Shown: piece by piece, positions 1,911-53,268 of the stretch
Layout: every line of letters begins with the position of its first letter
Numbering within the stretch: position 1 is the first letter of the stretch
Origin: Spartobacteria bacterium
GTDB taxonomy: Bacteria > Verrucomicrobiota > Verrucomicrobiia > Chthoniobacterales > UBA10450
NCBI GenBank assembly: GCA_003134785.1
Contig: PLCN01000009.1
Span: 1-64,000 of the forward strand
Direction: 5' to 3'
DNA length: 64,000 nucleotides
The notes under the pieces: model-generated
Seen by the model: the letters and a program-made list of their open reading frames with translations, nothing else
Databases searched by the model: none
Told to the model about the DNA's origin: nothing
Made by a program: the position numbers and the translations under genes

Positions 1911-4900
1911 ATGAAATTCAGAAGAGATTTTCGCGGAAGATCTCTCGTACTTTTTCTGGCCTCAGTCTTCTGCCTCGCCAGGGGCACTGTGCTCGCGCAG
2001 ACGTGCACGCCGCCGCCGCCAGGAATGGTCGGTTGGTGGCCGGGCGATAATAGCGCAATCGACATTCAGGGGGGCAACAATGGGACCCCGGAGAACGGCG
2101 TAACGTTTGTGCCGGGTAAAGTCGGACAGGCGTTCAGTCTTAACGGGACTGATCAAGACGTTTTGATTGGCAACCCACCGAGTCTTCAATTGCAGGACTT
2201 CACCATTGACGCGTGGGTGCAACGGGCGAGTGCCAGCGTCGTCTCGCTCAGTGAATCGGGTGGGCCAGGAGGATTGATCTTTTCCTATGGCACTGGGGGC
2301 TACGGCCTCGGCCTCTTGGATGATGGAAGCATCTTTTTGTCCAACATTGGATTTGACGGAGTGCAAACCAGCACCCTGAAGGTAGCGGACACAAACTTCC
2401 ATCATGTCGCGGTCACGAAATCAGGCACTGCAGTGACCTTCTTCCTCGACGGCGTAGCGGAGAGTTTTTCCTACACTACAACCTTTACTTTCACCACCAA
2501 TGCTTACATCGGACAGACGGGCACGAATACCTTCTATGGCCTTCTCGACGAAGTCGAAGTTTTCAATCGCGCGATTACGGCAACAGAGATTGCTAACATC
2601 TACAACGCCGGCAGCGCCGGCAAGTGCAGGTCCTGCACCCCGCCGCCAGCAAACATGGTCGGTTGGTGGCCGGGCGATGGAAATACGAATGACATTCAAA
2701 ACGGCAACAATGGCACACTGACTGGCGGAGTGAGCTTCACCTCCGCGGAGGTGAATCAGGGATTCACTTTCGATGGCACGGGCCAGGTGGCGATCCCGCC
2801 CAACGACAACCTCAACATTAATCCTTCCGGCTTCACGGCGGACTTCTGGTTCCAGGGTATTCAGAATCAGCCCTCGGAAGACGATCTTTTTGCCATTCTC
2901 GATAAATCGCATGGCACCTGCGGCGGGGCGAGTTGCGGCTGGGTTTTCCAGGGCCGTAACAGCGATCACAGCATCGCCTTCGTCGTTGGGGACGGAAGTG
3001 GAGCCTTCCCGGCCGTTAGCAATCTGCCGAGCGTGAACATTCTCGATGGAAGTTTCCATCATCTCGCCGGCACCTGGGATGGCAATGCCAACACGATCAG
3101 TTTCTACATTGACGGGATGCTGCAAGGCACAACGCCGCTCTCAACCCCGACAAACAACACCAGTGAGCTGAGCATTGGCTCGCGGGCCGGCGGGGGTCGT
3201 CCAATCATCGGCACCGTCGATGAAGTCGAAGTTTTCAACCGCGCGCTGGCTGATACCGAAATACAAGCTATCTACGCCGCAGGCTCCGCGGGCAAGTGCA
3301 AACCCGTGTGCACGGCGCCGCCGGCAGATATGGTTAGTTGGTGGCCGGGCGATGGAAACGGCCGCGACATCCAGTCTAACAACAATCTCTCGTTCGTGAA
3401 TGGCAAAGCGTTCGCGAATGGAAAGGTAGGACAGGCCTTTAGCTTTAACGGAAGCGGATTCGCCACCGCAGGCACGCCTGGCTCTCTCGCGATAACCGGC
3501 AATCAGGTCACCCTTGACGGCTGGATCAACCCTACTGCGACCGATGAGGCCATCTACTTCGGCAAGACCGCTAACGGAAACAACGACTATCTCCTGCTCT
3601 TGGATGGCGGGCAACTCTCGTCCTTCACCAAGACGAGCGGTGTTGAGACGATTATCAGGGGGTTCTCCGATTTCCCGACAGACGCGGTGCCATTTGTGCC
3701 ACCACTTGGCCAATGGACACATATCGCGCTCACCTACGACGGAGCAACGATCAAGGTCTATGCCAACGGGGCACTCGTCGGCTCGGGGACTCCTACAACG
3801 ACGGGCAATATCGACGGGGATCCATCGCCGTTCAATATCGGCGGTCGCGACGACGGTCTGGACTTCAACGGTTTGATCGACGAAGTGGAAGTCTTCAATC
3901 GCACGCTTTCCCAAGCGGAAATCACAGCGATCTACAACGCGGGCAGCGCGGGTAAGTGCAAACCTAACTTGCCACCGATAATTACGAGCTCCGCCAGCGC
4001 CACCTTTTCCATTGGCGCGCCCGGATCATTTACGGTTACGACCGATTTCGGTTATCCGGCCGGCGACACCATTACTCAATCTGGAGAGCCAGCGTGGGTT
4101 ACATTCACTGATAATGGAGATGGCACGGCGACTATTACGGGGACGCCGCCTGATGGTTCGGCGGGTCCAAACTCTTTCACGATCACTGCGAGCAACGGAG
4201 TTTCTCCCGATGCCACGCAGAACTTTACCCTCACGGTGGACGAAGCTCCTCACATCAGCAGTAGCAACACCGCGACCTTTAATGTCGGGCAGACCGGTAG
4301 CTTTAATGTCACAACCGATCACGGGATTCCGACGCCAGCTCTAAGTGAAGTAGGATCGCTGCCTACTGGAGTCACCTTCATCGATAATTCTGATGGCACA
4401 GCGACGATTTCGGGAACACCAGCGGCCGGAACCGCGGGCAGCTACTCGTTGTTCCTAACCGCCAGCAACGGGGTTCCACCGGATGATACGCAAAACTTTA
4501 CCTTGACCGTCACCGATGGACGACCACCGACTCAGACCCCGCCTTCCACCACTCTCGATTTTAACAATGCCCTCGATGCGAACCATGCCAGCGGAGATAA
4601 CCTTGTGTCCGCGTCTGATGATGAGGCCGACGGTGGGCTGGATAACACTTATGGATCTTTCGGCGCGGTTACACCTGATGTTTCGGTTGATTGGGGCGCT
4701 AACGATGCAAACCCTGGCAACAGCCTTTCCAATCACTGGCGGCTAGCCCAGTCGGCCCCCTTTCCCACTACCAGCGCCATCTACCAGGCGAACGACCCCG
4801 TCGTCGGACAAGGTCCTGGCACACAGTTCCGCACCACACCTATCACTCTCACCGCGAGTGGCGGCCGGGCCGCCCACTTCGATTCAGTTACCGTTGGCTA

Positions 4901-7900
4901 CATCACCGGCGTTGCAGGTCCAGACGTGGAGATCGATGTAGAGGTAATTGTCGATGGGACGACCTACACAACGACCGCGTTTCTGGCCAGCGGCGCGACA
5001 ACCACCATCGACCTTAGCGGCAGACCCGCGGGCAAGGTGGTTCAGTTGCAACTGTTCAATCCCAACGGCGAGGTAACTGAATTCCCGATCGACGACTTGA
5101 AGTTCTCGCAGTTCGAATGCACGCCGCCGCCCACAGGCATCGTCGCGTGGTATCCGGGTGACGGAAACGCGGACGACATTAGCGGCAACGGCAATAATGG
5201 CACGCTCCAGGGCGGCGCCACGTTTGGTTTGGGAAAAGTAGGCCAAGCTTTTAGTTTCAACGGCACTACTGCTTACGTGAGCGTGCCCGGCACGTTCGGC
5301 GGAGGTCCTGAAATGACAGTTGATGCGTGGGTAAGGACTGATGGAGTTGGAGTCACGACCGAAGACATTCAGGCGATTGTGTCTTCGACCAATTTGGAGT
5401 TTATCCACTTTCAACTGAGCAATACTTCCGGAATCCAGACCGGCTTCTTTACCGAGAATGGTTTCGTTCCCTTTACCGTTCCGGGTGAGTCGCCGATAGG
5501 TGTCTGGCGGCACATCGCAATGACGGCTAAATCGGGAGACTCGCGTCTCTATGTGGATGGAGTTCTGTTTAGTTCAAACGCCAGTACCTTTAACGCGATT
5601 ACTCCAACTTCCGATCTACGAATTGGCTCGGGCTATCAAGGAGCGAGATTCTTCGATGGGCTGATCGATGAAGTTGAAATCTTCAATCGCGCCCTCTCCG
5701 CCACGGAGGTGCAAGCCATCTATGATGCGAGCAGCGCGGGCAAGTGCAGGTCCTGCACTGCGCCGCCAGCGAATATGGTGGGTTGGTGGCCGGGTGATGG
5801 CAATGCCGTCGATATCCAGAGCGGCAACAACGGCACACTCCAAAACGGCGCGACCTTCGCGCCCGGCGAGGTCGCCCAAGCCTTTGGCTTTGATGGCGCG
5901 AGCGCGGTGGTAGAAGTGCCTAATAATGCCGCCTACGATTTCGGCAGCAGCGATTTCACGATCGACACTTGGGTAAACTTCAACGATCTCTCCGGCGCCC
6001 CTGCCTTTGTGGCGCATGACGAAGGCGGAGGGGTTACTAACAAATGGATATTCTGGCTCAATGCTCCGAATCTCCAGTTTCATATCAACGGACCGGGGGG
6101 CACGGCATTCATTGGCGTTCCCTGGTCGCCCACGACCGGTCAGTGGTATCACGTCGCGGTGACCAGAAGCGGCGGAGACACCTACAAATTCTACGTCAAC
6201 GGAAGTCAGATCGGCACTGACCAGGTCGATCCCAATGCGACAGTAGTTCCGGTAGCGAACGCGCCGCTTACGATAGGCAAAGCCGAAGGAATTCCGTCTC
6301 TTAACGGCTTGCTTGATGAGGTCGAAATCTTCAATCGCGCTCTGACTGACTCAGAAATCGCGGCGATCGCGGATGCCGCTAACGCGGGCAAGTGCAAGCC
6401 TATCGTCCAATTCAGCTCAGCGAATTATAGCGTGAGCGAAAGCGGCGGCAATGCCATTGCCACTGTTACTCGCACGGGCGACTCCGCGGGTAGCTCAACG
6501 GTTCATTATGCCACGAGCAACGGCACTGCTACTGCCGGCACCGACTACACTGCTACTTCAGGTACCCTTACGTTTGGTCCGGGAGTGATCAGCCAGGACA
6601 TCCAGGTGCCAATCTTTGATGATGGCCTCTACGAAAACGCCGAGACCTTTACCGTCACTTTGGATACGCCCTCGACGGGCACGTCTCTTGGAACGCAGGA
6701 CACAGCCACTGTTACAATCATCGAGAACGATCCGCCGCCGACGGTGCAATTCAGTGCGAGTAACTACAACGTGAATGAGGACGCCGGGACGGTAACCTTG
6801 ACCGTGACCAAGACTGGTTCCACCGCACTCAGTTGCACAGTGGACTACGCGACGAGCGATGGCACCGCGACCGCGCCGGCCGACTACACTGCGACCTCGG
6901 GCACCGTGACCTTGGCGGCCAATGAGACGAGCAAGACCTTCACCGTTCAGATCAACAACGATGGAATCTACGATGGCGACCAAACCTTTAACGTCACCTT
7001 AAGCAATCCGAGTAGTGCTACCCTTGGCTCGCCTTCCACTGCCACGGTGACCGTGATCGATAATAATGCGCTGCCGCTGGTGCAATTCAGCGCCACGAAC
7101 TACAACGTAAACGAAGGCGATGGCACCGTGACGGTGACGGTAACCAAGACCGGCAATACGGCCGTGCCTGCGGCGGTGAACTACGCGACCAGCGATGGCA
7201 CTGCAACCGCGCCTTCCGACTATACAACTACATCCGGCACTCTCACATTCGCACCGACCGAAACGTCGAAAACGTTTACCGTCCCGATTATTCAAGACAC
7301 AGTTTATGAAGGTAATGAGACCTTCACTGTGACGTTGAGCACGCCGGTCGGCGCCACCCTGGGGGCGCCTAATCCCGCGACGGTTACCATTATCGATGAT
7401 GATCCTCCGCCTGTAGTGCAGTTCAGCTCTGGCACCTACAGCGTGAGTGGAAGCGCAGGCAATGTGACGGTGACCGTGACCAAGACCGGATCTACCGCGG
7501 TCAATGCGGTGGTTCACTATGCTACGAGCAATGGGACTGCGACGGCGCCGGGAGATTACACGGCTACTTCAGGCGATCTGACCTTTGCTCCTAGCGACAC
7601 GAGCAAGAACATCACCATACCTATTGTCAACGACTCCGTGTATGACGGGAGCGAGAACTTCATTGTCACGTTGAGCGCGCCAGCGTCCGCGACGCTCGGA
7701 ACTCCGATTACTGCCACGGTAACCATTACCGATCCCAACTCGGCGCCATCCTTCTCGATTGACAATGTGTCGCACAACGAAGGTAACAGCGGAACGACCG
7801 CTTTTGTCTTCACCGTGACCAAGACGGGCACGACCGCGGTCAACGCGACGGTGGATTACGCGACGGTGGATGGGACGGCAACGGCGCCATCTGATTACAC

Positions 7901-10900
7901 GGCCATTCCGACTACCACGCTGACGTTCCTGCCTGGAGATACGACCAAGCAGATCACTGTGCTTGTGAACGGCGACACGACTTTTGAGGCAGACGAGACC
8001 TTTACCGTCCACCTCTCTGGCGCGACTAACGCGACGATCGGCACGGCCGACGGCACGGGCACGATCGTGAACGACGATGCGCCCCCTTCATTCTCGATCG
8101 ACAACGTGACGCATAACGAAGGTGATGTCGGCACAACCAACTTTGTCTTCACCGTCACGAAGACGGGCAGCACAGGGTTGAGTTCATCGGTCAACTTCAC
8201 CACTCTGGACGGCACGGCGACGATTGCGGACAACGATTATCAATCGAACACGGGCACGCTGACCTTCGGGCCAACTGATGCGACGATGCAGATCACCGTG
8301 CTGGTCAACGGCGATACCCAGGTCGAGGCAGACGAGACCTTTACCGTCCACCTCTCGGGCGCAACTAACGCCACGATCGGCACGGCCGACGGCACGGGCA
8401 CGATCGTGAATGACGATACGGATGTGACCGTCGCGGTGTCGCCACCGTCGGTATTAGAAGATGGCGGGCAAAACCTGGTCTATACCTTCACGCGCACCGG
8501 CATAACGAGCGGACCGATCACCGTCAACTTCTCGGTGGGCGGCACGGCGAGCTTCAGCAGTGACTACACGCAGAGTGGGGCGGCGTCGTTCAGTTCATCG
8601 AGCGGCAGTGTAACGTTCGGCGATGGGATCACCACGGCTACGGTGACAATCCAGCCCACGGCTGACACCATCTACGAGTCCGACGAGACCGTGATCCTGA
8701 CCGTTGGGTCTGGTAGCGGTTACAGTGCTGGGACGCCAGGAACAGCTACTGGCACCATTACGAATGACGATCCGGCACCGACCTTGAGTATCGGCGACAG
8801 GATTGCAGCAGAAGGTAGTAACCCCGGAAGCACTACTCCTTTCGTGTTCACCGTCACGATAACCGGCAATACCAATGTGCCTGTCACTGTCCAATTCGCG
8901 ACGGCGGACGGCACGACCAATCCGGCCACTGGCGGAGCGACCTGCGGCGGGAATGTTGATTACGTTACGAAGACGGGATCGCTTACCTTCCTTCCGAACG
9001 AAACGACCAAGACGATTACCATAGATGTCTGCCAGGATACGACCCCTGAGCCTAACGAGACTTTCTTCGTGGAGCTATCCAGTCCCACCGATGCCACCAT
9101 CTCGCGCGGGGAAGGCCGGGGCACGATCCAGAATGACGATGCGCCGCCACCATTGGTGCCGGTTAACACGACAGACGATCTCGATCCTACAGGCACCTGC
9201 ACCGTAACGCATTGCACTCTGCGCGAAGCCATCAATACCGCCAATCTGAGCACCAACGCTGTCTCGATTACATTCGAAATTCCGGCGGCGGATCCCGGTC
9301 TTAGACATTTCTATTACGCAGACGACCACACCGCCGGGCAAGTAACTGCAGCCAATGTGACAGAAACATCGGCCTCGGACGATACAACCATAGCAGACAT
9401 CGACCCTGACTGGCCACATAGCTGGTGGTCGATCCTTCCTACTTCCGCGCTGCCGGCCATCACCCAAACCGTCACCATCGACGGTTATTCGCAGACCGGC
9501 GCTACGGCTAATAGCACGCCTGCGGGTGACAATGCAGTCCTAAGAGTCGAACTAGATGGAGCCAGCGCGGGCGCGAGTGTGACGGGACTCACTGTTAGTT
9601 CAACCGGATCGACCGTGCGCGGTTTGGTAATCAATCGCTTCACCGGCGATGGTATGAACGTTTCCGGTGGCAATACCACGGTGACCGGGAACTTTCTTGG
9701 TTCGGACGTGAGCGGCACGCTCGACCTGGGTAATACCGGCAATGGCATATCCTGCTCCGGGTTCAGCGAATCGATCGGAGGTTCGACGGCGGCAGACATT
9801 AACCTCATCTCGGGTAATGACGGGGACGGCATTTCATTCACGGATAGCAATAGCGATCTTGTGCTGGGCAACCTGATCGGCACTGCGGCCCACGGCTTCG
9901 GTGCACTGGGTAATAGCGGAAATGGTATCACATTCTCGGGTGGCGGCTCGGTCTTCAATACCATCGGCGACACTCAGGCCGGCGACGGCAACACTATCGC
10001 GTTTAACGGCGGCGACGGTGTCCAGGTGGGCCCGACGGCTGGTTTCGCCAATACCATCCGCGGCAACTCCATCTACTCGAATGGCACCACGGCTTCGAAC
10101 CTCGGAATCGATCTTGGCCCGGACGGCGTAACACCTAATGACGCCAAGGACGCCGACAGTGGTCCGAACAATTTGCAGAACTTCCCGGTTATTACCCAGG
10201 CCTTGGTGACTGGCAGCACCAAGACGATCAAAGGAACTCTGAACTCCACACCGGGCACGACGTTCGACATCGACTTCTATGCGAACTCGACCTGCAGCAC
10301 TTCTGGAAACGGCGAAGGAAAGACTTATCTCGGCAGCCTTACCACCGACCAAACCGATGCGAACGGCGATGTCTCGTTTACCTTCCATCCGGATGTTACC
10401 CATGCGCCGGGAATGACAGTGGGCGCGGTCGTGACGGCGACAAGCACGGGCGCGGCCTCGACCTCGGAATTCTCGGCCTGCTTCACCGTGGCCGATGGTT
10501 CCTCGGGAGCAGGTGAAATTCAATTCACTTCACCGACCTACACAGTAAACGAGAACGATGGCACCGCCTCGATCACGGTTACGCGCGTGGGCGGAAGTAA
10601 CGGTGCGATCACAGCGAACTTCTCGACCAGTGACGGCACCGCGCAGGCGCCCGGCGATTACACCGCAGTTACGAATTTCCCCGTAACTTACACTGAAGGC
10701 GAGACCGGCACCAAGACAGTGACGGTGTCCATCGTCAATGATGCCATCTACGAAGGGAATGAAACGGTCAACCTGTCGTTAAGCGCCACGCAAATCACTT
10801 CGCCGGACCGGATCAACCCTATTCCGAATCAAGCGCAAGCCAATCAATCTGCTGTCCTAACCATTGTTGAAGACGATCCTGCCCCGACATTCACGATCGA

Positions 10901-12320
10901 TGATGTGAGCCACAATGAAGGCGACAGCGGCACTACTTCCTATGTCTTCACGATCACAAAGACCGGCAGCACGGCGCAAGATGCCAAAGTGGATTACGCG
11001 ACGGTCGATGGGACGGCGACCGCCCCGTCCGACTATACTGCGATCACGCCAACCACTCTTACGTTCCTTCCGGGCGATACGACGAAGCAGATCACCGTGC
11101 TGGTGAATGGCGACACGAATGTTGAGAACAACGAAACGTTCACGGTTCACCTTAGCAACGCGGTGAACGCGACCATCTCCGACGCCGACGGCACGGGCAC
11201 GATCCTGAACGATGACGTGCCAACACCGACTCCGACTCCTACGGCGACGCCCACACCTACAGTTACTCCGGCACCCACCCTCACCCCAACGCCCTCACCT
11301 ACAGTTACTCCGGCACCCACCCCCACCCCAACGCCCTCACCTACAGTTACTCCGGCACCCACCCCCACCCCAACGCCCTCACCTACAGTTACTCCAACAA
11401 CCACCCCCACCCCAACGCCCACACCTACAGTTACTCCGACAACCACACCCACCCCAACGCCCACACCTGCTGTTACTCCGACAACCACACCTACCCCGAC
11501 GCCTACTCCTACACCTACCGCTACACCGGCCCAGGCACTCAATATTTCGACCCGACTGCGGGTAGAAATTGGGGACAAGGTTATGATCGGCGGCTTCATC
11601 ATCACGGGTAGTACTTCCAAGGCGGTCGTGCTGCGCGGCATCGGCCCATCGCTCGTTGGTGCAGGTATTCCCAGCGCCACGGTCTTGAATGATCCTGTGC
11701 TGGAACTGCATGCAGCCGATGGCGCATTGATCACGTCGAACGACAACTGGAAGGACAGCCCGCAAAGGTCGCAAATCGAAGGCACCGTCTTCCAGCCCAC
11801 CGACGATCGCGAGGCCGTCATCGTGGCCACGCTCCAGGCCGGAAGCAATTATACCGCGATTCTGACCGGCAAGGACCAGACGACTGGAATAGGCCTGGTG
11901 GAAGTCTACGACAACAACCAGGCCGTAGACTCGCAACTGGCCAATATCAGCACGCGCGGATTTGTCCAAGGAGCGGATAACGTCATGATCGGCGGCTTCA
12001 TTTTGGGAGGCAACCCGGCCAACGCCACGATAGCGGTGCGAGGCATCGGACCTTCGCTGGCTGCTCTTGGCCTGAACAATGTGCTGGCTGATCCCACGCT
12101 CGAGTTGCGGAACGAGAACGGGGTGATCCTGGTCTCGAACGATGACTGGACGGACGATCCTGTGGCAGCCGGGCAATTAGCGGCCAACGGACTGGCGCTT
12201 TCGGATCCGAAAGAGTCGGGCATCTTCACTTCGCTGCCACCGGGACAGTTCACCGCGATCCTGGCCGGGAAGGACGGCGGCATCGGCATAGGATTGGTCG
12301 AAATCTATAACGTGAAGTAG
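1911..12320 (+). CDS. Giant secreted LamG / Calx-beta mosaic protein (3469 aa)
   Basis: Starts with a signal peptide (positive residues, then [14 protein letters not shown], probable cut near LAQ-T, residue ~30). Domains in order: three LamG-like concanavalin-fold domains (about 32-240, 242-465, 467-683), each opening with C-TxPPxxMVxWWPGD; two Ig/cadherin-like repeats (~685-865); a region of unknown fold (~870-1065); two more LamG domains (~1070-1280, 1282-1497); eight Calx-beta repeats (~1498-2410); a CTLREAIN-type right-handed beta-helix segment (~2415-2865); two further Calx-beta repeats (~2870-3100); a Thr/Pro stalk (~3104-3207); and the duplicated C-terminal module (~3209-3469). LamG domains usually bind glycans and Calx-beta repeats bind calcium, so a calcium-stiffened surface adhesin or polysaccharide binder is likely. 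Substrate and export route are unknown. It appears monocistronic. Confidence 0.9.
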
Positions 12321-24567: not shown

Positions 24568-26871
24568 ATGCCAACCAAAACGACGAGCAAGACCACAGCG
24601 CGCAAGCCAACGACCGTCCGCAAGCCGGTCAAGGCGACCGCTCCGTCTCGCGCCACGGCATCTGACTCGAAGCACAAAGAGGTAAAGAAAACCAAAGTTG
24701 AGACGCCGACGAAATCGGCGCGCGCCTCTTCGACTGCGGTTGCGGCCAAAACTCGCTCTCATGCCGAGTCGACCGCAAAGTCGCACGCTGCGCCGGCTAA
24801 ATCCGTTGAGGCACCGAAGCCGGCGCCAAAACCGGTGATGGAAACTGTTTCGCTGATTGACGAAAAGAAGCCGCGCCCGAAGCGCGCCGAATCCGACCCG
24901 GCGACCAAGCGTTCGTTTCTACCTCCCATCTCTCGAATTCGCGCGACGCCGGAACCGGTCGCGCCGGGGCCTGTTGAAATCGCACCGGCCCCGCCCGCAC
25001 AGGTCCAAGAGCCTGCTGCGGTCGCACCTCCAATCGAGGTTCCGGCGCCGGATGCGGTCGCGCCCGTGATGGAACCGGAAGGTGAGGCGCAAAAAATAAT
25101 TCACATCAAGCCGCCGATCGTCGTCAAGGATTTGGCGCAACAGCTCGGTCTGAAGAATTTCCAGCTCATCAAAGAGCTGATGACCGAGTTCAACATTTTC
25201 GCGAGCGGACCGACGCAGACGGTCGAGCCGGATATCGCGACAAAAATTTGCGAAAAGCACGGCTTCGTTTTCGAAATGGAGCGCCGCGAAAAAGGCGGCG
25301 GCGTGCACAAAGTCGAGCAGGTCGTCGTCGCGCCGCCTCCGCCGGTGATCGAGAAGGAAGAGGAACTCAAGACGCGCGGGCCGATCATCACGTTCATGGG
25401 TCACGTCGATCACGGCAAGACGTCGCTCATGGATGCGATCCGCAAGACGCGTGTCGCGGCGGGCGAAGCCGGTGGGATCACGCAGCACATCGGCGCCTAC
25501 ACCGTTGATTACAAAGGCTCTCGCATCACCTTTCTCGATACGCCCGGCCACGCCGCTTTCACCGCGATGCGGGCGCGCGGGGCGCATGTGACCGACATCG
25601 TCGTTCTCGTCGTGGCGGCCGATGACGGATTGATGCCGCAAACACTCGAAGCGATCAGCCACGCGAAAGCCGCGCCGCATGTGAAGATCATGGTCGCGAT
25701 TAATAAGATCGACTTGCCCGGCGCGAACATTGACCGCGTGAAGAAGCAACTGCAGGAAAGAGAATTGTCCCCGGAAGATTGGGGCGGCGAGACAATCGTG
25801 GTTCCAGTCTCGGCGACCAAAGGAATCGGCATCGATGAGCTGCTCGAGAATATGGCTGTGCTGGCCGAGGTGATGGAGTTGAAAGCATCGCCGACCGCCA
25901 CGCCGCGCGGCACCGTGATCGAAGCGCAAGTCGAACCTGGCCGCGGACCCACCGCGACCGTCATCGTGCAAATGGGTACGCTTCGCACCGGCGATCCGTT
26001 CATCTGCGGCGATTACGGCGGCAAAATCAAATCGTTAATGGACGATCGGGGCAAACCGATCAAGGAAGCGGGTCCTTCCACGCCGGTAAAGGTTCTCGGG
26101 TTCAGCGGCCTGCCGCACGCCGGCGATGAGTTTCTCGTAATGGAATCGGAGCGCTCCGCGAAGACTTTGAGCGAAGAACGCCTGCTGGAGCGGCGCGCGG
26201 ATAAGTTGAGCGTGCCGCAACGCGCGACGCTCGAAAGTCTGCTCGAAGCGGCCGACGGCATGAAACATTTGCGCATCGTGCTGAAATGCGACGCGCAAGG
26301 TTCGCTCGAAGCGCTGGTTGGTGCGCTCGGTCAAATCGAAAGCAAGAAGATCGACCTCGAGATTGTGCACGCGGGCGTCGGTCCGATTTCTGAATCCGAC
26401 ATCCTGCTCGCAAGCGCGTCGAATGCGGTGGTCGTCGGCTTCAACGTCAAGGTGGAGAGCATGGCCGTGAACATCGCGAAACGCGAAGGCGTCCAAGTCA
26501 AGCTCTACAGTATTATTTACGAACTGATCGATCAGATGAAGGAAGCGATGGCGGGTATGCTCGAACCGGAGCATCGCGAAACCGTCATCGGTCACGCGGA
26601 AGTGAAGCAGATTTTCAAGTTGAGCAGGGGCATAGTCGCGGGCTGTCTCGTGACCGATGGCCGCATCGCTCGCACCGCGCGCGCGCGGGTCTTGCGCAAG
26701 CGCCAACCCGTTTACGATGGCGGCTTATCCACGCTGCGGCGTTTTCAGGACGATGTAAAAGAGGTCCGTGTCGGCCTTGAGTGCGGAATCAAGCTGGGCG
26801 ATTTCAACGAATATCAAGTGGGCGACATCATCGAGTGCTATCAGCTCGAAGCGGTCGCGCAGAAGCTGTAG
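24568..26871 (+). CDS. infB: Translation initiation factor IF-2
   Basis: 767 residues. A low-complexity Lys/Ala/Pro/Glu N-terminus (~1-170) leads to the short IF2-N domain ([20 protein letters not shown]). The GTPase follows with G1 GHVDHGKT (from ~residue 278), G3 DTPGHAAF and G4 NKID. Domains II, III and the C-terminal initiator-tRNA-binding barrel (to [12 protein letters not shown]) complete it. It recruits fMet-tRNA to the 30S subunit. The 44-base gap after nusA is consistent with one transcript, and no ylxR or L7Ae-like gene lies between. The stop codon is part of the left arm of the inverted repeat at 26868-26924. Confidence 0.96.
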
Positions 26872-26924
26872 CGCGAGCTTCCAGCTTGCGAACCAATCGA
26901 GCGCAAGCTGGAAGCCCGCGCTAC
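26868..26924. repeat. Inverted repeat between infB and rbfA
   Basis: Arms 26868-26890 and 26902-26924 (23 bases, one mismatch) close an 11-base loop. The left arm contains the infB TAG, and the right arm ends 11 bases before the rbfA ATG. The AGCTTCCAGCTTGC-type core resembles the GCAGGCTGCCAGCCTGC elements at 32372 and 49515. In mRNA it would be a very stable hairpin inside the operon. Confidence 0.85.

Positions 26925-32203: not shown

Positions 32204-32209
<6 letters not shown>
32137..32209. repeat. Paired hairpins at the 3' end of tRNA-Gly
   Basis: GTCCGCC/GGCGGAC (32137-32143, 32158-32164) forms one hairpin. GCTCCATCCTTCGC (32165-32178) pairs perfectly with GCGAAGGATGGAGC (32196-32209). 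The second arm contains the encoded CCA end of the tRNA, so in the precursor this hairpin competes with the mature 3' terminus. Confidence 0.7.
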
Positions 32210-32278
<69 letters not shown>

Positions 32279-32371: not shown

Positions 32372-32537
32372 TTTGGGGAGCGCAGGCTGCCAGCCTGCAG
32401 TTCGCGGCAGCTTGCCGCGAACACTGCCATGACTTCGAAATAAATCGGATCGCCCGATTTTCCCCCGGCGAGGTCACAAGAAAACCCATCCGGCAAGATG
32501 CCGGATGGAGCAGGCTGGCAGCCTACGCTCCCCAAAA
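32372..32537. repeat. Cloverleaf-like inverted repeat, GCAGGCTGCC family, copy 1
   Basis: Outer arms (left from 32372, right 32511-32537) pair over ~26 bases around the motif GGGGAGCG(C/T)AGGCTGCC. Two inner hairpins lie between: the perfect palindrome at 32401-32421 and a near-perfect one at 32488-32508 (CATCCGGC/GCCGGATG). The same plan recurs at 49515-49651. It lies between tRNA-Gly and the esterase gene. Confidence 0.8.
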
Positions 32538-32569: not shown

Positions 32570-33178
32570 TTACCAACTCTTCGCAGCCTCGATGTCCCCA
32601 AGGCTGAGCGCATGTCCGGCGGGTTCGAAGCGCAACGTCACATCTGCACCTGCCGTACGTAACATCGCGGCGAGCCGCTCGGCATTTTCTACTGGCACAA
32701 TAGGATCGTGTTCGCCGGATGAAATCAAAACACGCACGTGAGCCAGATTTGGCAAAGCCGACGGTACGAGCGGGACCATTGCACGAAACAAAACCGCGCC
32801 CGCAAAGACTTCGGGCCGAAGGAGCAGAATTGACGCGGCGATGTTTGCGCCATTGGAATAACCGACGGCGGTCACGCGGTTCGGATCGAATTCATATCGC
32901 GCAGCGGCGGCGCTAACGAAATCGGCCAGTTCGTGCGCGCGCCGGATCACATCTTCTTCATCGAAGACGCCTTCAGCGAGGCGCCGAAAAAATCGCGGCA
33001 TGCCGTTCTCGAGAACGTTGCCGCGCGGACTGAGCAACGCCGCGGTTGGATCCAGATCGCGGCCGAGCGGGATCATGTCGTTTTCATCGCCGCCGGTTCC
33101 ATGGAGGAGCAGAAGCGCGCGCGGCGCTGGACTTTCCTGAGCTGGAACAAAACGATGAGTGAAGTTGAGGTCGGTCAT
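32570..33178 (-). CDS. Alpha/beta hydrolase, carboxylesterase/phospholipase type
   Basis: 202 residues from the ATG at 33176-33178 (MTDLNFTHRF). The frame stays open for 165 more codons upstream, but that part runs across an inverted repeat and antisense to prmA, so it is rejected. Motifs: LLLHGTGGDEND (oxyanion strand turn), VGYSNGANIA (nucleophile Ser), SSGEHDPIVPVENAERL (acid Asp) and PAGHALS (His). The set matches the YpfH/carboxylesterase-2 group acting on small esters, and lacks a signal peptide. The substrate is unknown. Confidence 0.88.
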   Translation of the reverse strand: MTDLNFTHRFVPAQESPAPRALLLLHGTGGDENDMIPLGRDLDPTAALLSPRGNVLENGMPRFFRRLAEGVFDEEDVIRRAHELADFVSAAAARYEFDPNRVTAVGYSNGANIAASILLLRPEVFAGAVLFRAMVPLVPSALPNLAHVRVLISSGEHDPIVPVENAERLAAMLRTAGADVTLRFEPAGHALSLGDIEAAKSW

Positions 33179-33187
33179 GGTTGATCG

Positions 33188-33261
33188 AGGAGGGGCGCTT
33201 TCCAAACGGCCCGCGCGGCAAAACGACCGTGGACCTGGACGGTTTGGAAAGCGCCCCTCCT
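33188..33261. repeat. Perfect 20-bp inverted repeat between divergent genes
   Basis: AGGAGGGGCGCTTTCCAAAC at 33188-33207 is matched without error by its reverse complement at 33242-33261, over a 34-base loop. It sits between the divergent starts of the esterase and prmA genes, so it may affect the promoters or leaders of both. Confidence 0.85.
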
Positions 33262-33304
33262 TGAGGCTTTCCGTTACGCGACAGGCTATACTGGAACAAT
33301 CTTG

Positions 33305-34165
33305 ATGTATATCTGGCGAAAGCGCGCGAGAGAGAGTTGGGGGTGTGGCCGGAGCGAGAGCATAGCGCTGCGTTTTGGCGGATCGCTGGCAGTCATCGAA
33401 CGGCCGGGAACGGAGCGCGTCACGCTCGAAATCTGTTGCGAGACAAAACGTGCGGCGCGCGATCTCGTCCGTGAATTCGGTGGTGGCATCGAGCAATTGC
33501 GGCGAAACTGGCTTCAGGATTTTGCGAGACGAACCCGAGCCAAGCCGCTGCGTATCGGTTCGCGCCTCGTGATTTTGAGGGCGCCCGAGAAAAAAAGTGC
33601 GAAGCCATCGCGAGCGAAGGCGGCGCGGACCATGGTCATTCCCGCCGAAGCGGCTTTCGGCACGGGCGAGCACGCGACAACCGCACTCTGCTTGCGTCTA
33701 CTCGAAAGCATCACGCGCCGGTTCCCGCCGGGTTGGACGATGCTCGATGCTGGCGCCGGCAGCGGAATTCTCGCGATCGCCGGCAGTTATTTCGGGGCCA
33801 GTCGTGTGATGGCCATCGATAACGATACCCTCGCCTGCGCCACCGCAAAGCGGAATGCGCGTGCGAACGGCGTGCACAACATCGAGTTTTCAACCGGCGA
33901 CATCATGAAGCAGGAGCACGCCGAAAAGTTCGACATCATTAGTGCAAATCTTTTCAGTGAGATTTTGATCGAAGCCTTACCGATCTGGTCCCGGCATCTC
34001 GCTCCGGACGCGCACTTGATCCTTTCAGGAATCTTACGGAGCCAGGAATCAGCGGTCGTTCGCGCGCTGCGGCGTCACGGCTTTACCCCTTCGGAAATCC
34101 GGCGCCGCGGGAAATGGATCGCAGTGCTTGCTCGCTCTAGGGCAAAAATAAATTCGCCGGCTTGA
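33305..34165 (+). CDS. prmA: Ribosomal protein L11 methyltransferase-like, PrmA
   Basis: 286 residues from ATG 33305 (a TTG lies one codon upstream). The N-terminal substrate-recognition domain (~1-105) is basic and diverged. The Rossmann SAM-binding domain has MVIPAEAAFGTGEHATT, DAGAGSGILAIA (motif I), AIDNDTLACATAKRNARANG (motif II), and SANLFSEILIEALP, the NLxxxxLxxxxP block of PrmA. The FGTGEHATT block is diagnostic for PrmA. It methylates L11 at several amines. The 3' end is 9 bases from the convergent small zinc-ribbon gene. Confidence 0.88.
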   Translation: MYIWRKRARESWGCGRSESIALRFGGSLAVIERPGTERVTLEICCETKRAARDLVREFGGGIEQLRRNWLQDFARRTRAKPLRIGSRLVILRAPEKKSAKPSRAKAARTMVIPAEAAFGTGEHATTALCLRLLESITRRFPPGWTMLDAGAGSGILAIAGSYFGASRVMAIDNDTLACATAKRNARANGVHNIEFSTGDIMKQEHAEKFDIISANLFSEILIEALPIWSRHLAPDAHLILSGILRSQESAVVRALRRHGFTPSEIRRRGKWIAVLARSRAKINSPA

Positions 34166-45639: not shown

Positions 45640-45652
45640 GCCGAGACGCGTC

Positions 45653-45804
45653 GTCATCCCGAGCCGCGCAGACGGCGAGGGACCTCGCATCCGCTCAACC
45701 GCTTCCGCGATACATCGGGCGTGCACGTCAGTTATGTCCGGTTTTCTCCGGTGCCGCAATTTGCATGGGTGAGGTCCTTCGCCGTCTGCGCGGCTCAGGA
45801 TGAC
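45653..45804. repeat. Inverted repeat, GTCATCCCGAGCC family, copy 1
   Basis: A 34-base arm (45653-45686, starting GTCATCCCGAGCC) faces its reverse complement at 45771-45804 with two mismatches over an 84-base interior. The same 34-base arm occurs at 52980-53158 with a different interior. It lies between lpxA and the decayed TIGR03790-like gene. Confidence 0.88.
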
Positions 45805-45820
45805 AGGCATGTGTGCGCGC

Positions 45821-46902: not shown

Positions 46903-46940
46903 CCTTGGGGCGCGCAGGCTGGCAGCGTCCGCTCCCCAAG
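46903..46940. repeat. Short inverted repeat of the GCAGGCTGCC family
   Basis: CTTGGGGCG...CAGGCTG faces CAGCGTCCGCTCCCCAAG. It is a compact version of the elements at 32372 and 49515. It abuts the first recognisable codons of the decayed gene at 45821-46902, exactly where its start codon should be. Confidence 0.65.
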
Positions 46941-47839: not shown

Positions 47840-49495
47840 GTGCTTACCCTGTTGCGAATCAAGAATCTCGCGCTGGTCGAGGATCTCGAATGGCAGCTCG
47901 CACCGGGATTCACCGCGATCACCGGCGAGACCGGCGCGGGGAAATCGATCATCATCGGGGCGCTGCAATTGTTGCTCGGTGAGCGGACCGACAAATCCTT
48001 GATTCGCACCGGCGCGGATGCCTGCACGGTCGAGGCTGTTTTCGAAGGCCCCGAACTGGAACAACTCAATTCGCTGCTAAGCGATTCGGGCATCGACGCC
48101 TCGGATGGAGAGCTGATTCTTAAGCGCAGCTTCTCGACCACGGGAACGAACCGCCAGTTCATCAATGGATCGCCGACCACATTGAATGTGCTGAAAAATC
48201 TTGGCGACGAACTGGTCGACCTGCATGGACCGCACGATCATCAGTCGCTCCTTTCGCCGGATCGCCAGCTCGCCTTACTCGACAGTTACGCGCACGCGGA
48301 TGAGACGCTGCGTGCATTCGGAGAACACCATCGCAAGCTGCAAACGTTACGGGCCGAACACGGGGCGTTGAGTACGGCGGAATCGGCGCGCGAGCAGGAA
48401 ATCGATTTGTTGCGCCACCAAATCACTGAGATCACGAGCGCGAATTTGTCCGCCATGGAGGAGGAAGAGATTGCGTTGCGCTACAAACTCGCGGCCAACA
48501 GCAAGCGTTTGCTGGAACTGGCCGGCTCGATCGCGCGGCGGCTTTCCGAAGCCGACGATTCCATCCTCCCGCAACTCGCCGAAACCCAACGTCTGCTCCG
48601 CGAGCTGGAAAAAATCGACCCATCGAAGGCGATGCTGGCGGAAGCGCACGCGGCGAGTGTCGTCGAACTTTCTGAAATCTCACGTTCGCTTGGACAATAC
48701 GCCGAAGAGCTTGATCTCGATCCGGTGCAGCTTGCCGCCTTGGAAGATCGCGTGTCGCTCTTCGAAACCTTGAAGCGAAAATATGGCGGCTCGATCGCGG
48801 AAGTGATTTCCTTCGGCGACCGAGCCGCAGAGCGGATGCGCAAGATCGAAGGGCGCGACGCGGAACTCGAGCGGCTGGACAAGGAAATCGAGAGCGCACG
48901 CGCCGAAGTCGAACGGATCGGACATGCCTTGCATAAGCTGCGCAGCAAAGCGGCGCCAAAGCTGGCCGAGAATATTCGCGCGAATCTGCGCGACCTTGGT
49001 TTTCGACAATCGGAATTCGAGACGAAACTCACCGCGCTCGATGAAGCGTGCGCGACCGGGTTTGATGCCGTCGAGTTGCTCTTTTCTCCGAACCCGGGCG
49101 AGCCGTTGAAACCGCTGCGAACGATCGCCTCGAGCGGCGAGATTTCACGATTGATGCTCGCGATCAAATCTTCGCTCGCCGCGCAGGATGCGATCCCGCT
49201 CCTGGTCTTCGATGAGATCGATGCAAATGTCGGCGGCGAAATCGCCAATGCCGTTGGCGCGAAGATGCAGAAACTCGCAGCCGATCATCAGGTTCTTTGC
49301 ATTACGCATCTGCCGCAAGTGGCCGCGGCGGCAGCGACGCAGTTCGTTGTGACGAAGGAAGTGATCGCGGGTCGAACGCATTCGCGGCTCAGCGAAGTTG
49401 CCGGCAAAGCGCGGCGCGAAGAAATAGCAAGGATGCTCGGAGGCAAAAGTGAATCCGCCCTTCAGCACGCCGCAACGCTCTTGAAGCAACGCTAA
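47840..49495 (+). CDS. recN: DNA repair protein RecN
   Basis: 551 residues from a GTG start (MLTLLRIKNLALVEDLEWQL), the standard RecN N-terminus. Walker A is ITGETGAGKSIIIGALQLLLG (~residues 30-38). A long coiled coil spans ~155-370. The C-terminal head has SSGEISRLMLAIKSSLA (ABC signature) and PLLVFDEIDANVGGEIANAVG (Walker B), then CITHLPQVAAAA. It is an SMC-like ATPase that acts at DNA double-strand breaks. The start lies 4 bases after an inverted repeat, so no ordinary Shine-Dalgarno is evident. Confidence 0.95.
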   Translation: MLTLLRIKNLALVEDLEWQLAPGFTAITGETGAGKSIIIGALQLLLGERTDKSLIRTGADACTVEAVFEGPELEQLNSLLSDSGIDASDGELILKRSFSTTGTNRQFINGSPTTLNVLKNLGDELVDLHGPHDHQSLLSPDRQLALLDSYAHADETLRAFGEHHRKLQTLRAEHGALSTAESAREQEIDLLRHQITEITSANLSAMEEEEIALRYKLAANSKRLLELAGSIARRLSEADDSILPQLAETQRLLRELEKIDPSKAMLAEAHAASVVELSEISRSLGQYAEELDLDPVQLAALEDRVSLFETLKRKYGGSIAEVISFGDRAAERMRKIEGRDAELERLDKEIESARAEVERIGHALHKLRSKAAPKLAENIRANLRDLGFRQSEFETKLTALDEACATGFDAVELLFSPNPGEPLKPLRTIASSGEISRLMLAIKSSLAAQDAIPLLVFDEIDANVGGEIANAVGAKMQKLAADHQVLCITHLPQVAAAAATQFVVTKEVIAGRTHSRLSEVAGKARREEIARMLGGKSESALQHAATLLKQR

Positions 49496-49514: not shown

Positions 49515-49651
49515 AATCTGGGGAGCGCAGGCTGCCAGCCTGCAGTTGCCGGCGACACCTTGACGACGCCACTTCGCATTCAGCGCCACGGGTCGCGCGA
49601 TGCATCTCGGCAAGCTGCCGAGATGGGCAGGCTGGCAGCTTGCGCTCCCCA
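49515..49651. repeat. Cloverleaf-like inverted repeat, GCAGGCTGCC family, copy 2
   Basis: Outer arms 49515-49542 and 49624-49651 match at ~26 of 28 positions and include TCTGGGGAGCGCA. An inner near-perfect palindrome at 49601-49623 has CATCTCGGC/GCCGAGATG arms, the same plan as at 32372-32537. It separates recN from the next gene. Confidence 0.85.
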
Positions 49652-52948: not shown

Positions 52949-52979
52949 GCTAAACAATAAACGACCGAGTTTAGAGGAT

Positions 52980-53158
52980 GTCATCCCGAGCCGCGCAGAC
53001 GGCGAGGGACCTCGCGGTCGTAGTGGCCACATTCTAGTCAGGAGGAACGCAGGAGGAACGTCGAACGAAGTGCTTGGGAATGCGTGGCACGATCCTGGTT
53101 TGATGGCGGCTACCGCGCGACTTTGAGGTCCCTCGCCGTCTGCGCGGCTCGGGATGAC
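52980..53158. repeat. Inverted repeat, GTCATCCCGAGCC family, copy 2
   Basis: Arms 52980-53013 and 53125-53158 are perfect 34-base reverse complements, with a 111-base interior unrelated to that of the copy at 45653-45804. The arms are more conserved than anything around them. It lies between divergent genes. Confidence 0.92.
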
Positions 53159-53268
53159 GGGCAGGGACTCCCCGGCCACAGATCGTTAGGTCATCTGGCT
53201 GAACGCGCGTTCGGCGATCCTCAGGCCAACGCATGCTTTCACCAAAACTTCTGTGATAGATTCCGTGG

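Follow-up and report, generated by a model that had tools for sequence, protein, structure and literature searches.

What kind of sequence is the palindromic element at 49520-49650, and what has carried it to where it now lies? The DNA analysed here, which we call the window, is a stretch of 64,000 nucleotides (C12:1-64000) from the 4.39-Mb draft genome, in 25 contigs, of a Spartobacteria bacterium (G000), and it contains two short copies of the element and one solitary end (Table 1). The copy at 49520-49650 is 131 bp long and starts 24 nt past the stop of ORF 47840..49495; the one at 32375-32533 likewise follows closely on the 3′ side of a gene, with 37 nt between it and a stop. The outer arms that the first-pass annotation had seen at both places are indeed common to them and 24 nt long (49520-49543 with 49627-49650; 32375-32398 with 32510-32533), and the flanks of the inner palindromes differ yet stay complementary, as it had stated (TTCGC/GCGAA and CATCC/GGATG at 32375-32533; CATCT/AGATG at 49520-49650). 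Its count of two full copies holds for 32375-32533 and has to be withdrawn for 49520-49650, because the left inner hairpin of the latter has decayed (GTTGCCGGCGACACC...). Of the two reduced forms that it had proposed, one is a genuine lone end, at 46914-46937, and the other, at 26868-26924, is an inverted pair of a different REP family with a GTAG head. ORF 24568..26871 ends on the TAG of this GTAG-headed pair (26869-26871), an overlap with a gene's end that the available text of PMC3733652 describes for GTAG REPs.

Table 1. Coordinates of the repeat family in the window.
Feature	Position	Strand	Remarks
Left terminal inverted arm	49520..49543	+	GGGGAGC head, then imperfect palindrome GCAGGCTGCCAGCCTGC; REP-like
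Right inner hairpin CATCTCGGCAAGCTGCCGAGATG	49603..49625	+	Stem variable, core constant; left inner hairpin of the same copy degenerate
Right terminal inverted arm of copy 49520-49650	49627..49650	-	
Complete short copy, 159 bp	32375..32533	+	Between tRNA-Gly (32204-32278, -) and 3′ end of ORF 33673..32570 (-)
Left inner hairpin GTTCGCGGCAGCTTGCCGCGAAC of complete copy 32375-32533	32400..32422	+	
Right inner hairpin CCATCCGGCAAGATGCCGGATGG of complete copy 32375-32533	32486..32508	+	
Lone degenerate end (single arm), same family as 49520-49650	46914..46937	-	

With up to one mismatch allowed, the motif GGCTGCCAGCC is found at 11 places in the window, where 1.28 would be expected; none of 100 shuffles reached that number. 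Predicted folds of the single DNA strand are strong, with z of -8.75 for 49520-49650 and -13.55 for 32375-32533; the cloverleaf shape proposed in the first pass is one such possible fold, and each arm could also fold alone. An Rfam RNA family was rejected as the identity of the element, as the scan of the window at the gathering score returned tRNA only (tRNA-Gly) and no other RNA family. The window also holds a second dispersed inverted-repeat element in two copies (45652-45805 and 52979-53159; arms GTCATCCCGAGCCGCGCAGACGGCGAGGGACCTC, 34-41 nt) and, at 11181-11532, 42-base tandem repeats within the 3469-aa ORF 1911..12320.

Across the genome we delimited 54 full copies of the family, 53 of 100-159 bp and one of 621 bp, and these are not recent identical duplications. 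Their ends are formed by the 24-nt inverted arm GGGGAGCGCAGGCTGCCAGCCTGC and its reverse complement, and GGCTGCCAGCCTGC, at up to one mismatch, is matched 204 times in the genome against 4 times for a reversed-pattern control. The head of the arm reads GGGGAGCG, its first four bases being G in 98-100% of 108 ends; it is not a GTAG head, and the family is thus not a GTAG-type REP. A related arm type with the head GGGTAGCG occurs in other genomes. Outside the GGGG, the flank tends to TTCT (T in 68% at -3, C in 62% at -2 and T in 79% at -1 of the 108 ends), which may belong to the element or to its target. The 54 copies have the layout of a REPIN or BIME, that is, two inverted REPs per copy, dispersed and mostly extragenic. 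In 44 of the 54, every frame is interrupted within the element or the 60 codons to either side of it; the remaining ten are the copy in recG and nine in which some frame is open, though not necessarily that of a gene. The short copies show no conservation of frame, and the idea that they act in frame was given up for this reason.

Inside the arm, intact ends carry a second hairpin with a constant core (CGGCA...TGCCG) and an outer stem of five to six bases that varies. In 32 of the 54 copies, which we picked as largely intact, so that the percentage flatters the family, 98.1% of 1472 cells are paired and double-sided changes number 144 against 45.7 (sd 5.1) after shuffling; sliding the partners by 1-3 columns brings pairing down to 28-50%. 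The changes in these copies fall mostly in the outer five stem positions, and the core is constant. A broader set consists of the 89 ends with a recognisable core among 114 ends from 57 places, some of them wrong arm pairings; here, pairing at positions 1-5 of the outer stem reaches 95.7%, compared with 52.6% when shuffled (maximum 61.1% in 1000), and over the 41 distinct stems it is 90.7% against 48.5%, with the proviso that related copies share ancestry and their stem changes are not independent events. Covariation is strong in the chosen copies and in the end units alike, and it supports the selection for the fold that the first-pass annotation had suggested, as likely only, since mutational correction of palindromes could covary stems too.

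The 621-bp copy (C9:145793-146413) is bounded by the same ends as the short copies and encloses a Y1_Tnp domain, that of a REP-associated tyrosine transposase (RAYT). Its frame is continuous with RecG on both sides and without a stop, giving an ORF of 845 aa in which the Pfam order is RecG wedge, DEAD, Y1_Tnp, Helicase_C and RecG domain 3. The RAYT is flanked by 45-nt arms that are 89% complementary, with inner hairpins of the same layout as in the short copies, and it carries the motifs PDHLH (HUH) and FQYITRNP (tyrosine region). A linked RAYT, which the first pass had proposed looking for, is present, with the arms of the family and in frame in recG. A second RecG was sought in this genome and none was found; weaker matches lie in frames of 1066 and 775 aa, which, judged by their length, are probably Mfd and another helicase. 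Among eight Y1_Tnp matches in the genome, two more are in frame in conserved genes, in metH between the homocysteine and pterin domains and in Sua5 between its two domains; MetH, like RecG, is single copy here, and both carry the insert. Four scores against NCBIfam NF047646 fall just below its cut-off of 80 (72.8, 79.8, 79.8 and 78.1 bits). The genome contains further RAYT or IS200-like genes (L031, L032, L034 and L036), each between inverted repeats of another type, so that several transposase-repeat pairs seem to coexist in it.

These likenesses suggest, with a probability that we put at about 80%, that the window element is a non-autonomous mobile repeat of the REPIN/BIME kind and that the Y1 HUH RAYT in frame in recG is its autonomous partner. 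In the mechanism that we propose, the RAYT would cut single-stranded arms folded as hairpins and would move the short copies in trans. It would be made only as part of the host protein, with the host supplying promoter and start codon, and any stop or frameshift in its frame would be removed by the purifying selection that acts on the host gene; by riding in a needed gene, at loops that tolerate it, the transposase could thereby last.

Comparison within the genus is consistent with mobility; the genomes used in this work are mostly draft assemblies. At the site of copy 49520, the element is present in G000, G007 and G004, with its inner hairpins swapped in the last; the site is empty, with a spacer of about 20 nt, in G001, G005 and G006, and it is occupied by unrelated palindromic elements of other REP types in G002 and G003. 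The site of copy 32375, comparable in two genomes, is empty in G007 and holds another, GTAG-type element in G003. The flanks of the empty sites are too diverged to place the exact insertion junction or a target duplication. These differences fit repeated insertion, as for a mobile element, and loss or inversion may explain part of them.

The abundance of the repeat appears to follow this RAYT in the genus. We counted the 24-mer arm in each genome on both strands with up to three mismatches, a procedure for which the reversed-pattern control gave 0 in 44 of 44 genomes. The three members with this RAYT type in recG (G000, G004 and G007) have 116, 80 and 73 arms, against 20 (G001), 4, 1, 0 and 3 in the five without it; only 1 of 56 arrangements is as extreme as this split. 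The recG of those five holds RAYTs of other types (G006 and G001), nothing (G002 and G005) or a short in-frame remnant (G003). Outside the genus, G010 has 33 arms though the exact arm of another type sits at its recG. For G001 and G010, other or past RAYTs must be assumed, and dispersed copies could descend from old activity. The arm patterns of two other RAYT types cross-match at two mismatches and for this reason were not used as specificity tests.

Residence within a housekeeping gene is widespread among relatives of this RAYT. A profile of its clade, run against genome contigs in searches centred on this phylum, gave 137 relatives, of which 80 were kept; their titles name Verrucomicrobiota or Kiritimatiellota groups, except for one titled only 'bacterium', and the closest relatives carry Spartobacteria and Chthoniobacterales titles. 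None of the 80 loci has an internal stop in the RAYT (24 are cut by a contig edge). By blastp, with host references that were themselves members of this set or of an earlier in-frame set, the RAYT's open frame also encodes a housekeeping protein in 75 of the 80: RecG in 32, AlaS in 26, MetH in 11, ThrS in 4, and PriA and CarB in one each. The other five are free-standing, with no host match and frames of 211-271 aa. Pfam searches of 15 host proteins place Y1_Tnp inside RecG, MetH, Sua5, ThrS, PriA, CarB, AlaS, ValS and ClpB; the exceptions are L120, where nothing but a weak match to DUF4391 accompanies the RAYT, and L177, whose RAYT is itself unmatched by PF01797. One metH looks broken or split, as its frame ends 21 codons past the matched RAYT domain (L182). 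Among 288 genomes drawn evenly from the phylum, 70 give a RAYT match at E <= 1e-15; 46 of the 112 matches, including all 8 below E 1e-50, lie in open frames of at least 500 aa, with hosts identified for some of these 46. The HUH motif P[DN]HxH is found in 73 of the 80 RAYTs; five of the other seven keep HxH with another neighbour, and in two of the 80 the first His is replaced by Tyr. The putative catalytic tyrosine region, F-x-Y-[IVL], is found in 74. One alignment took 58 of the 80 domains.

Two further arrangements were seen in these searches. A longer RAYT clade occupies CarB, in frame and at nearly the same point each time (L118, L119, L122, L123, L126, L127 and L133), and among the matches listed such CarB RAYTs come from at least seven genomes, six belonging to the same family as this organism and the seventh (G045) to a different family of the order. 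In L132 (metH) and L190 (alaS), a single host gene appears to carry two RAYTs, both in frame.

At most loci, translation runs through the left arm in a single frame (GSA...), with 11 of 80 off this pattern and one unparsed. Scanning the 30 codons before the matched domain and its first 10 codons in the 75 in-frame RAYTs, we found no ATG, GTG or TTG in 25, only GTG or TTG in 40, and ATG in 10; in the five free-standing RAYTs, an in-frame ATG was seen by eye just outside the left arm. From this pattern the RAYT element seems to borrow its start. An AlphaFold2 model of the RecG-RAYT protein L138 (897 aa; 26 sequences) is of only moderate quality (mean pLDDT 69.6, pTM 0.52). In it, the RAYT forms a block (residues ~402-546, pLDDT mostly 80-89) between linkers (355-401 and 547-573) that have pLDDT below 50 and are predicted to be disordered; most of the linker sequence comes from the palindromic ends. 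The complete model has RecG 1gm5 as its best match in the PDB. Modelled alone, the RAYT reaches a mean pLDDT of 89, and its top fold match is 4er8 (E 2.2e-6, TM 0.64 by query), a REP-associated transposase, TnpA(REP), bound to a REP hairpin; the same entry was the only match in a PDB sequence search with the RAYT.

Within recG, RAYT dN/dS has a median of 0.10 and a maximum of 0.34 (20 non-independent pairs, dS 0.05-1.5). The transposases turn over faster than the host gene: the same loop is occupied by highly dissimilar RAYTs in recG hosts that differ by a dS of only 0.15-0.36 (L144 versus L207 and L165), and between L144 and L207, dN is 0.02-0.03 for the host and 0.55 for the RAYT. On a RAYT tree of 82 rows, host labels need 13 changes against 41.5 when shuffled (recG 8, alaS 6, metH 3), which indicates that RAYTs mostly keep one host gene and sometimes switch. 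Exact-site homing into recG was rejected because insertion points differ within the recG loop. A single ancient insertion into recG was likewise rejected, because close hosts differ in their RAYT and the tree needs the eight recG changes, three of them forced by well-supported branches. With less assurance than for the pairing of repeat and transposase, we consider it probable that a RAYT lineage lacking its own start exists mainly as an internal domain of RecG, AlaS, MetH, ThrS and other housekeeping proteins, protected and expressed by its host and moving short copies in trans, and that the same loops are repeatedly recolonised by different RAYTs in close relatives, in the manner of inteins, though with no splicing.

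Other accounts of the short copies have been weighed against this evidence. They might be RNA or transcription elements, terminators or mRNA stabilisers, kept for that role, with mobility in the past; the strong strand folds of both window copies and their position just 3′ of genes, as known for REPs (PMC3733652, available text), speak for such a role. It would sit poorly with a presence that varies among close relatives, with the swapping of inner hairpins between G004 and G007 at one site where G002 and G003 have other REP types, and with a window devoid of any Rfam family save tRNA, and we regard it as distinctly improbable. Nor need covarying stems reflect selection for recognition: template-switch correction of imperfect palindromes is a known process, and it is mainly the outer five stem positions that change while the core is constant. 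Mutation of this kind leaves unexplained why the core is constant, why two hairpins are laid out at both ends and why the RAYT element has the same layout; that it accounts for the covariation is unlikely, if less so than a retained RNA role.

For the transposase, the rival that we take most seriously, though doubtful, is that in-frame RAYTs have no special lifestyle and are mere survivors of random insertion, out-of-frame events having died. The varied insertion points in the recG loop fit tolerance of this sort better than homing to an exact site. Yet random insertion predicts autonomous copies to be common between genes, as the short copies are, and only 5 of 80 stand free; moreover, the 25 of 75 in-frame RAYTs without a nearby start codon, and the 40 more with only GTG or TTG, are not what it leads one to expect. 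That the RAYT has been domesticated as a new, host-helping domain of RecG, MetH or AlaS would agree with purifying selection on it and with RAYTs elsewhere having been called domesticated (PMC8049555, available text). This we judge very unlikely, given that recG is empty in close relatives, that little-diverged recG hosts hold very different RAYTs in the same loop (L144 versus L207 and L165) and that the host enzymes are unrelated to each other.

How does the system compare with known ones? RAYTs with REPINs were reportedly treated by Bertels and Rainey in 2011 (PMC3116915); they are also the subject of Nunvar 2010 (PMC2817692). As in the part of the latter available to us, a Y1 HUH transposase lies here between two inverted palindromic repeats that are also dispersed as inverted pairs, and the palindromes covary. 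Known RAYTs are separate genes, called single-copy and vertically inherited in the available text of PMC8049555, whereas those described here are embedded in the reading frame of housekeeping genes and are subject to turnover, and each end includes a second, variable hairpin. The TIRtron/TIRYT elements (Di Nocera 2013, PMC3733652) share long terminal inverted repeats, some doubly palindromic, a motif starting with GGGG and the repetition of some in the genome; their motif is GGGGWSAS, in contrast to GGGGAGCG here, and the available text describes no in-frame host gene. Intragenic REPs and Rickettsia palindromic elements are, according to the same source, palindromic repeats read in the frame of conserved genes, among them genes for DNA repair, and O. 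terrae, of the Verrucomicrobia, is among the richest. Those inserts are short, many encoding 20-30 aa, whereas here a whole transposase element of ~200 aa lies within the gene and most of the short copies are extragenic. Inteins and IStrons are likewise mobile elements inside needed genes that spare the host; unlike them, the insert here is apparently tolerated and not removed. Pfam scans of 15 host proteins at E <= 0.001 gave no intein splicing (Hint) domain, and no intron family, as an IStron group I intron would give, reached the Rfam gathering score in six loci.

Earlier publications already describe RAYTs between inverted REPs (PMC2817692) and REPs located within genes (PMC3733652), as far as the available text of each goes. 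A literature search whose coverage excluded most subscription papers found no report of RAYTs or transposases in frame inside host genes. To judge from the sequences, the repeat belongs to the REPIN/TIR kind, and our main result, which appears to be new, is a lineage of RAYTs that reside in frame within housekeeping genes. For annotators, a transposase domain in a Verrucomicrobiota housekeeping protein can be neither a misassembly nor a pseudogene; one RAYT survey set aside proteins that were longer than expected, taking them for gene fusions or errors of annotation (PMC6006769, available text). For the biology of these elements, the finding bears on the open question of how RAYTs and their repeats persist for so long in bacteria. 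A transposase within the only RecG, AlaS or MetH of the cell would be hard to lose by a stop or a frameshift and would need neither a promoter nor a start of its own, so that in-frame residence may be one concrete way for a selfish element to last.
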